40,801 nucleotides of DNA, taken from positions 1-40,801 of the IMG/VR virus record IMGVR_UViG_3300047546_002695. One strand, written 5' to 3'. How positions within the stretch are numbered: position 1 is the stretch's first letter; every line of letters begins with the position of its first letter. A model generated the notes under the pieces. The model saw only the letters and a program-made list of their open reading frames with translations, was not told where the DNA came from and ran no database searches. A program made the position numbers and the translations under genes. This document shows positions 24,596 through 26,035 of the stretch, one piece after another. The DNA is from a virus.

Positions 24596-26035
24596 ATGAC
24601 TTTTGCACAGGCAACACGGAGTCAAATGACTCGGACAGAGAACGGTATGCCAACCTACATTTCGAGTGGCAAGCGCTGCGTCGACTTGTTCTCAAGTGTT
24701 GGGGAGTACCGCAATGCTGACATCACTGCGGCGTTTGTTGCCGCACTGGAGGAAAACGCTGATTACGCGATGCGTATTGCGTTGTGGGGTCGTGACATTC
24801 GCGGTGGGGCGGGAGAACGCGAATTCTTTCGCAAGATTCTGCGTCTTCTCGAAACTATCGATGCATACAAGGCCATTGCACTCGCGCAGCGTGTGCCTGA
24901 ACTCGGACGCTGGGACGACTTGCTGGTATTCCGCACGGATGTTTGCAAGAAGTTTGCGTTTTCCATGATCGCCAAGGGTCTTCAAGAGAAGAACCGCTTG
25001 TGCGCGAAGTGGATGCCACGCAAAGGCGCCGAGGCAGAAGAACTTCGCTCTTTTCTCAAGCTGGGGCCGAAAGCGTACCGCAAGCTGCTGGTGTCGTTGA
25101 CTAACGTAGTGGAGACGAAAATGTGTGCCAAGCAATGGGATGACATTGAGTTTTCACACGTACCATCGGTTGCCGCAGCGCGGTACCGCAAGGCCTTCTA
25201 TCGTAACGCGCAGGAAAAGTTTGTTGCGTACGTACAAGCCCTGCAGAACAAAGAAGAGGGCGTTAAAGTAAACGCATCAGCTGTGTTTCCACACGATGTC
25301 GTACGCTCACTTTCGGAGAGTAAGTACAATTCATCTTCGCTGTCGCAAGCTGAGCTGAACTTCATCACCGCGCAATGGGAAGCACTTCCCAACTATGTTG
25401 GCGATGCGCGTGTGCTTCCACTGGTCGACGTATCAGGCTCAATGGATTCACACACACTTGGTGCAGGGAATCTGACCGCACTTGATGTAGCAGTTTCACT
25501 TGGCCTTTATCTTTCTGATAAGAATCAAGGTGCGTTCAAAGACTTGTTTATGACATTTACCTCTGAACCGCAGTTGCAATTACTGCGTGGCAATATTGTC
25601 AGCAAGTATATGCAATTAGTGCGTGCACAGTGGCACGGGTCAACCAACATTGAGAAGGCATTTGCACGCATCTTGGAGGTTGCAAAGACTAGCCAAGTTC
25701 CTGCAGAAGAGATGCCGCAGACACTGTTGATTCTGTCTGATATGCAGTTCGATCAGGCAACGTATCAGTCGTCAGACGTACGGGCGATGGAAGTACTGCG
25801 TGCTATGTACGCTCAAGCTGGCTATGCACTACCAAACGTGGTGTTCTGGAATCTGAGCAACGCCGCAACACGGAGTCTCGATAAGGCAGTACAATTTGAC
25901 GAGAGTGGTACGACCATGATCAGTGGATTTTCACCAATGTTGCTGTCAATTGTGTTATCAAATTCGCTCGAGTCGTTCACCTCAGAGTCAGTAATGCTGG
26001 CCGCAATTATGAAGGAACGCTACGACTGGCAATAA
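24596..26035 (+). CDS. DUF2828 family vWA protein, Ro60-like architecture
   Basis: 479 aa, ATG after GAAAGGAG. Residues about 1-260 are α-helical and carry the DUF2828 signature: NGMPTYISSGKRCVDLF, LWGRDIRGGAGEREFFRKIL, VPELGRWDDLL, CAKWMPRKG and YRKLLVSLTNVVETKM. Residues about 272-450 are a von Willebrand A domain with an intact MIDAS: DVSGSM at 278, the Thr of WHGSTN near 349 and ILSDMQFD near 382. A helical N-terminus plus vWA domain is the layout of Ro60/TROVE proteins, which bind Y RNAs and misfolded RNAs. The gene lies behind its own promoter and an array of RNA stem modules. The family match is strong; RNA binding is inferred. Confidence 0.85.
   Translation: MTFAQATRSQMTRTENGMPTYISSGKRCVDLFSSVGEYRNADITAAFVAALEENADYAMRIALWGRDIRGGAGEREFFRKILRLLETIDAYKAIALAQRVPELGRWDDLLVFRTDVCKKFAFSMIAKGLQEKNRLCAKWMPRKGAEAEELRSFLKLGPKAYRKLLVSLTNVVETKMCAKQWDDIEFSHVPSVAAARYRKAFYRNAQEKFVAYVQALQNKEEGVKVNASAVFPHDVVRSLSESKYNSSSLSQAELNFITAQWEALPNYVGDARVLPLVDVSGSMDSHTLGAGNLTALDVAVSLGLYLSDKNQGAFKDLFMTFTSEPQLQLLRGNIVSKYMQLVRAQWHGSTNIEKAFARILEVAKTSQVPAEEMPQTLLILSDMQFDQATYQSSDVRAMEVLRAMYAQAGYALPNVVFWNLSNAATRSLDKAVQFDESGTTMISGFSPMLLSIVLSNSLESFTSESVMLAAIMKERYDWQ

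Follow-up and report, generated by a model that had tools for sequence, protein, structure and literature searches.

A virus-encoded DUF2828 protein with a predicted Ro-type fold and an adjoining array of candidate partner RNAs

The virus record IMGVR_UViG_3300047546_002695 of IMG/VR, a stretch of 40,801 bases which was analysed at its full length and is referred to here as the window, encodes a 479-amino acid protein of the DUF2828 family, and the gene is flanked by small structured RNA elements: three in tandem upstream and probably a fourth directly downstream. Comparison with relatives of this locus suggests that the gene and the RNAs constitute a phage ribonucleoprotein (RNP) of the Ro-Y type, with modular RNAs which often mimic tRNA. 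We assign this reading a probability of about 0.8, and we infer from the comparison that protein and RNA assemble. As to its parts, the protein is almost certainly of the predicted Ro-type fold, that is, a helical ring closed by a von Willebrand factor A (vWA) domain; the array is very probably made as discrete RNAs; and these RNAs are likely to be bound by the DUF2828 protein, considering the precedent of Ro60 and Y RNA and the co-occurrence of gene and array. The protein family itself and its Ro-like labelling are already known in databases, and the part that is new here is the RNA array. The features discussed are as follows.

24302..24330, + strand: sigma-70-like promoter TTGACA-17-TATTAT, 11 of 12 matches, expected transcription start at about 24337
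24335..24393, + strand: RNA1, terminal helix TGGATGCGT/ACGCATCCG, ACAGCA motif, 5-bp hairpin with a 7-nt loop
24396..24452, + strand: RNA2, terminal helix TTGACTACC/GGTAGTCAG, ACAGCA motif
24473..24545, + strand: RNA3, terminal helix TTGGATGAG/CTCATCCAG, GCAGCA motif, inner hairpin, fold z-score -2.95
24584..24589, + strand: Shine-Dalgarno-like AAGGAG, read from the sequence, 6 nt 5' of the start codon
24596..26035, + strand: gene for the DUF2828/DUF7788 protein, predicted Ro60-like, 479 amino acids, ATG start, intact open reading frame (ORF), helical residues 1-268, vWA residues 269-479
25427..25441, + strand: DVSGS of the metal ion-dependent adhesion site (MIDAS; D278, S280, S282), with T350 at 25643-25645 and D382 at 25739-25741
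26045..26108, + strand: RNA4 (probable), terminal helix TTGGGTGTG/CACACCCAG, variant motif CCTGCAAC, inner hairpin CAAGAG/CTCTTG

The original prediction had placed a DUF2828 protein with an RDIRGGAGER motif at 24596-26035, and both are present: the motif occupies residues 66-75, and the Pfam DUF2828 model matches residues 123-264 with 98 bits (cut-off 29). DUF7788, a vWA domain of Pfam, was likewise detected above its cut-off at residues 276-458 (145 bits, cut-off 27.1). Beyond DUF2828/DUF7788, no name that points to a function was obtained for the protein from Pfam, PADLOC or NCBIfam. PHROG 850, named 'RNA-binding protein', matches over the full length (residues 4-478, E 1.6e-131). Relatives are encoded in 681 of 50,697 phage records; nearly all of them span the full length, and none reaches 60% identity. 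At least 580 relatives were confirmed on viral contigs and 364 on bacterial and archaeal genome contigs, the best 80 of these 364 belonging mostly to Ruminococcus and further Clostridia of the gut. In phage databases the family is called 'RNA-binding protein' or, in mycobacteriophages, 'Ro-like RNA binding protein'. Given these labels and the wide occurrence, the protein belongs to a common family, and annotators had already suspected that this family resembles Ro. The earlier statement that DUF2828 has no assigned role thus needs qualification with respect to such labels, and it stands insofar as no functional test of the family was found.

The strongest evidence for the nature of the protein comes from its predicted structure. 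An AlphaFold2 model built from 87 aligned relatives has a mean pLDDT (predicted local distance difference test score) of 91.9 and a pTM (predicted template modelling score) of 0.91. When the model was compared with known structures by VIA-align, the Ro autoantigen 1yvr ranked first (Z 21.0 over 408 residues, root mean square deviation 3.9) and the top ten entries were all Ro/TROVE proteins, the best match outside this group being a lone vWA domain (Z 10.7 over 176 residues). The best seven Foldseek matches were also Ro/TROVE proteins. The Ro60-like layout of the original prediction, a ring with a vWA domain, is therefore what structure prediction and comparison return. The MIDAS, which had been described as functional-looking on the basis of its DVSGSM, Thr and ILSD loops, is intact as well, and none of its residues (D278-x-S280-x-S282, T350 and D382) varies among the 87 aligned relatives. 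In profile comparison the vWA half is closest to the TROVE vWA (E 8.6e-16), whereas two other sets of vWA domains gave 3.4e-6 and 7.2e-6. An alternative role, unrelated to RNA, is that of a vWA cochaperone of the MoxR-vWA type in virion assembly, of which phage examples have been described (PMC7824862), and one relative carries the annotation 'putative structural protein'. This role is very unlikely in view of the full-length match to the Ro60 fold, a vWA domain nearest to TROVE among the sets tested, and the co-occurrence with RNAs described below.

The expected profile-level link to TROVE was found for the vWA half, whereas residues 1-268 align with TROVE collinearly but marginally in hhalign (E 0.042, probability 1.3%); because of this, the Ro assignment of the helical half rests on the fold. 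Pfam TROVE (PF05731) gave no match in the window protein (E up to 10) or in 87 members (E up to 0.1), and by this curated test the family lies outside TROVE. Sequence searches of the PDB gave no match with the single sequence or with 7 aligned sequences, and with 87 aligned sequences they gave TROVE matches, all of which were sub-significant. What the DUF2828 proteins have in common with Ro60/Rsr (PDB 1yvr, 1yvp and 2nvo, and Ro60 of Thermus phage phiLo, 9l5y) is the predicted fold over the whole length (Z 21.0 to 12.5), the domain order, the MIDAS and the vWA profile; they differ in lacking a Pfam TROVE match and a significant N-terminal profile match, and in their conserved motifs, which are RxxRGGxGER, GRWDDL and AKWxPR. 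DUF2828 is thus a sister family with the predicted Ro60 architecture and probably shares ancestry with TROVE. The net charge is +9 in the N-terminal part and -7 in the vWA part, and charge and conservation data map no RNA-binding surface.

RNA1-3 lie in tandem between the upstream ORF and the DUF2828 gene, and RNA4, directly 3' of the gene, is the probable fourth member of the array. In each of RNA1-3 a helix of 9-10 bp joins the ends, and CAGCA lies at most 3 bases from the 5' strand of this helix. That RNA structures flank the gene was part of the original prediction, and it is borne out here: the region 24313-24595 contains three elements consisting of a helix of at least 8 bp plus CAGCA, compared with 1000 dinucleotide shuffles of which 999 had none and one had one. 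At a locus with a 95% identical protein (L001) the RNA helices are kept and the interiors are changed; both arms of the inner hairpin of RNA3 are replaced together, and RNA4 is identical. The ORF 24396-24578 had been considered as a gene and was discarded, because indels of 1 nt and 5 nt in L001 break this ORF, the only one in that stretch. The promoter-like TTGACA-17-TATTAT ends at 24330, and transcription would therefore start at the first helix, i.e., at the 5' end of RNA1. The number of promoter-like matches in the region is not above that in shuffles, and only the position of this one is suggestive.

The pattern of a terminal helix with CAGCA extends to the whole family. A total of 154 kb of sequence 5' of 230 distinct DUF2828 genes contains it at 365 sites, compared with 6 on the opposite strand, and its density is 2.37 per kb in these upstream stretches versus 0.14 per kb inside the DUF2828 genes. 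The outermost pair, which was not selected for, is a standard pair in 333 of the 365 sites, and the last base is G in approximately 92%. Among 350 distinct RNAs, a set which kept only those with G as the last base, the consensus is 5'-(U/A)(A)(A/G)(G)NYNC-NN-(A)CAGCA(A) ... NNRNC(U/C)UG-3'. In 62 diverse examples, changes on both sides were observed at all seven helix pairs. The 100% pairing among the selected sequences is partly by construction, since they were selected with cells 3-8 paired, and independent support for the helix comes from the different types of pair that occur, from the outer pair, which was not selected for, and from the control on the opposite strand.

A covariance model, R1, was built from these 62 examples and contained nothing from this virus or from the named phages. 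It recovered RNA3, RNA2 and RNA1 as the first, second and third matches of the window, with 26.6 bits (E 1.7e-4), 26.1 bits (E 2.2e-4) and 20.8 bits (E 0.0055), respectively. At E <= 0.001, R1 matched 10 of 12 named phages with DUF2828 and none of 7 phages without the family. In ten bacterial genomes, 11 of 12 matches were on the contig that carries DUF2828 and within a few kb of the gene, some of the loci being part of the training set. Arrays contain up to six different RNAs, and the helices are distinct in 93% of the 54 loci that have at least three. In Mycobacterium phage Rumpelstiltskin, three tandem RNAs of the same kind lie just 3' of gp54, a full-length member of the family with approximately 32% identity; the Ro-like status of gp54 ('Ro-like RNA binding protein') is annotation only, and the adjoining RNAs are without annotation there. 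The handle, its linkage to the gene and the variable interior are established by sequence comparison, and the array RNAs are most likely a family-wide and hitherto unrecognised partner RNA of DUF2828 proteins. No report of DUF2828 together with an RNA array was found in the searchable literature, which excludes most subscription papers, and some phage Y RNAs may have been noticed earlier.

It might also be considered that the hairpins are a cis-acting leader or trailer of the DUF2828 mRNA, involved in autoregulation, attenuation or stability, rather than free RNAs. Most copies are indeed just upstream of the gene and on the same strand, as in Listeria P100plus, where three RNAs precede DUF2828, and binding of a Ro-like protein to the leader of its own mRNA is conceivable. 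On the other hand, a pure leader role is made less likely by copies which lie downstream of the gene (Rumpelstiltskin and Staphylococcus S-CoN_Ph12), between the tRNA genes of the Felix-like phage wV8, or many kb away. In addition, there are up to six different RNAs per array, and tRNA-like interiors would be unexpected in a leader. We thus regard a leader or trailer as improbable and favour discrete RNAs that belong to a Ro-Y-type RNP.

Several observations weigh against such an RNP, in addition to the marginal N-terminal match to TROVE. RNA4 is only a weak match to R1 (E 0.78), no RNA of the window passes Rfam at gathering scores, and the interiors of RNA1-4 are not recognisable tRNA pieces. 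Moreover, R1 found no match in 2 of the 12 named DUF2828 phages, and in some of the others the RNAs are far from the gene, at a distance of many kb.

In relatives, the interiors vary even inside one array and include anticodon-arm mimics, T-arms, whole tRNAs and permuted YrlA-like tRNAs. T-arms were detected in 62 of the 350 RNAs, compared with 4 for the opposite strand. The shape of an entire, linear tRNA is found in some interiors, and several score as tRNA in Rfam. An early T-arm is present in 27 RNAs and is followed by a D-arm in 20 of them, versus 5.1 in shuffles; this order, which is that of a tRNA permuted at the anticodon, was found in relatives only and in none of the window RNAs. Among RNAs without a T-arm, 67 of 289 have a hairpin with the anticodon loop CUNNNA(A/C), compared with 2 antisense and 1.4 in shuffles, and the wobble place of 56 of these 67 is G or U. 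This directional pattern was used instead of a loose one, for which the opposite-strand control is uninformative because the loose pattern is near its own reverse complement.

The YrlA model (RF02553) gave sub-threshold matches to RNAs of relatives, the best of which scored 35.4 bits (threshold 69) and was aligned over positions 1-114 of 114. Full-length alignments of this sub-threshold kind were obtained at two loci (L230 and L040), and the model had no match among the window RNAs. YrlA and some of the relatives' RNAs have in common a terminal helix that closes a permuted module of T-arm, acceptor and D-arm, whereas the array RNAs differ from YrlA by their CAGCA-type handle, by the presence of several per array and by many interiors that are not permuted tRNAs. 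A feature annotated as 'tRNA-Sup' in Vibrio phage PhiImVa-1 (L289 2210-2324), immediately 5' of DUF2828, overlaps with an incomplete match to YrlA; it may represent a tRNA-like RNA of the array and not a working tRNA.

A possible mechanism can be proposed from these features. The protein is predicted to form a helical ring closed by its vWA domain, whose MIDAS should be able to bind metal. The RNA handle, i.e., the end-joining helix and the single-stranded (A)CAGCA(A), would most likely dock on the protein, and the variable interior may then be held outward and displayed. Since the interiors of relatives copy tRNA pieces, the RNP most likely offers tRNA-like modules to a tRNA-binding partner. 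The interiors of the window RNAs are not recognisable as such pieces, and thus the effector of this virus may differ.

Two uses of such an RNP may be envisaged. The first is a decoy for a tRNA-cleaving or tRNA-modifying enzyme, and a decoy or tRNA-partner role in this broad sense has a nearly even chance. The narrower idea that array RNAs and host tRNAs compete for anticodon nucleases, or for other defence enzymes directed at tRNA, is somewhat more tentative: the 67 hairpins of anticodon type, in which the wobble place is mostly G or U, the several different modules per array and the competitive inhibition suggested for YrlA (PMC7790460) all point this way, whereas the window RNAs are without such modules, and chromosomal bacterial copies occur, so that the role is not purely anti-defence. 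The second use is tethered decay or quality control, in which the RNA would tether or gate a nuclease of the host or the phage and the ring would handle damaged RNA ends. It has been reported that a Y RNA tethers or gates PNPase for Rsr in Deinococcus (PMC7790460), and work on jumbo phages noted TROVE proteins as RNA-repair platforms (PMC7824862). The predicted Ro60 fold is consistent with this use, as are an RtcB-like ligase 1.3 kb beyond the gene in Listeria P100plus and the presence of RtcB in 2 of 12 phages. However, no conserved neighbour gene, nuclease or other, was found among 89 proteins flanking DUF2828 genes; we consider tethered decay or quality control possible but doubtful. The original prediction is supported in part, namely in the predicted ring with a vWA domain, the TROVE link of the vWA half and the flanking RNA structures; the role may be that of an RNA chaperone or of an RNA-tethered decay factor, and the tRNA-mimicking interiors of relatives add a tRNA decoy as a third option.

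The same phage RNAs are also matched by the Rfam model of Dictyostelium Class I RNA (RF01414), in all cases below the gathering score, the best score being 36.1 bits (gathering 41.5) in relatives. When 24 records were searched, DUF2828-bearing viruses gave 24 matches, of which 15 were within 1 kb of the gene, compared with a length-based expectation well below 1. The single match in a control phage falls within a coding gene of T4 and was taken as chance. Class I RNAs measure 42-65 nt; they begin with AAG, finish with CUGU, are closed by a stem between their ends and carry a conserved motif of 11 nt next to the 5' strand of this stem. They have been reported from no organism outside the social amoebae (PMC7919456). 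They thus resemble the array RNAs in their size of approximately 60 nt, the end-joining stem, a UUACAGCAA-type motif by the 5' strand and a variable remainder, and, following the same description (PMC7919456), they share the (A)AG start and CUG end with the consensus of the 350 RNAs. Unlike the phage RNAs, they are products of eukaryotic genes with a DUSE promoter, and their reported binder is Rnp1A, a protein with an RNA recognition motif. To our knowledge, no DUF2828 partner of Dictyostelium Class I RNAs has been described. The likeness may reflect either shared ancestry or a shared solution. It is conceivable, if rather speculative, that DUF2828 proteins and CAGCA-handle RNAs represent one ancient Ro-like RNP class of phages, bacteria and amoebae, in which Class I RNAs are Y-RNA-like partners and the phage arrays are modular tRNA mimics that block tRNA-targeting defences.

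With these results, the family found in the 681 phage records gains a predicted fold, a likely partner RNA and a testable mechanism, and the range of Ro-Y RNPs would be widened past TROVE proteins. Multi-RNA arrays with exchangeable tRNA-like modules can now be seen, and bacterial YrlA and Dictyostelium Class I RNA, previously unconnected, appear to be tied to one handle design. The mechanism could be examined in common laboratory phage systems, for example, Mycobacterium phage Rumpelstiltskin on M. smegmatis.

Genes near the DUF2828 gene of the window encode an intein-interrupted large terminase, a portal-like protein, an endolysin and a ribonucleotide reductase. The terminase is an 865-amino acid ORF (16559-19156, + strand) in which an intein splicing domain (PF14890) lies inside the terminase RNaseH-like protein (PF17289). 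Next but one to the Ro-like gene is an ORF (26548-27891, + strand) that matches the Bmp/PnrA nucleoside-binding lipoprotein family (PF02608, E 6e-15), which is unusual for a phage. Regarding the neighbours in other phages, RtcB was rejected as a general partner, as its link holds only in the 2 of 12 phages mentioned above. A macro-domain protein in phiM12 (L286 1154-1717) and an RNA ligase in Munch (L288 979-2187) are each encoded a few genes away from the family member, a hint of RNA repair in a subset of phages. The DUF2828 gene of Listeria phage P100plus, together with its three RNAs, is preceded at approximately 1 kb by a match to the full length of ROOL RNA (L285 935-1486; 86 bits, threshold 99.1, E 5e-16). 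Elsewhere in the window, positions 1-5110 (- strand) contain no listed ORF, the reason being that a single long frame on the minus strand seems to extend beyond the window end, and the region 28000-36000 contains many short overlapping ORFs and few long genes, with raised G+C.
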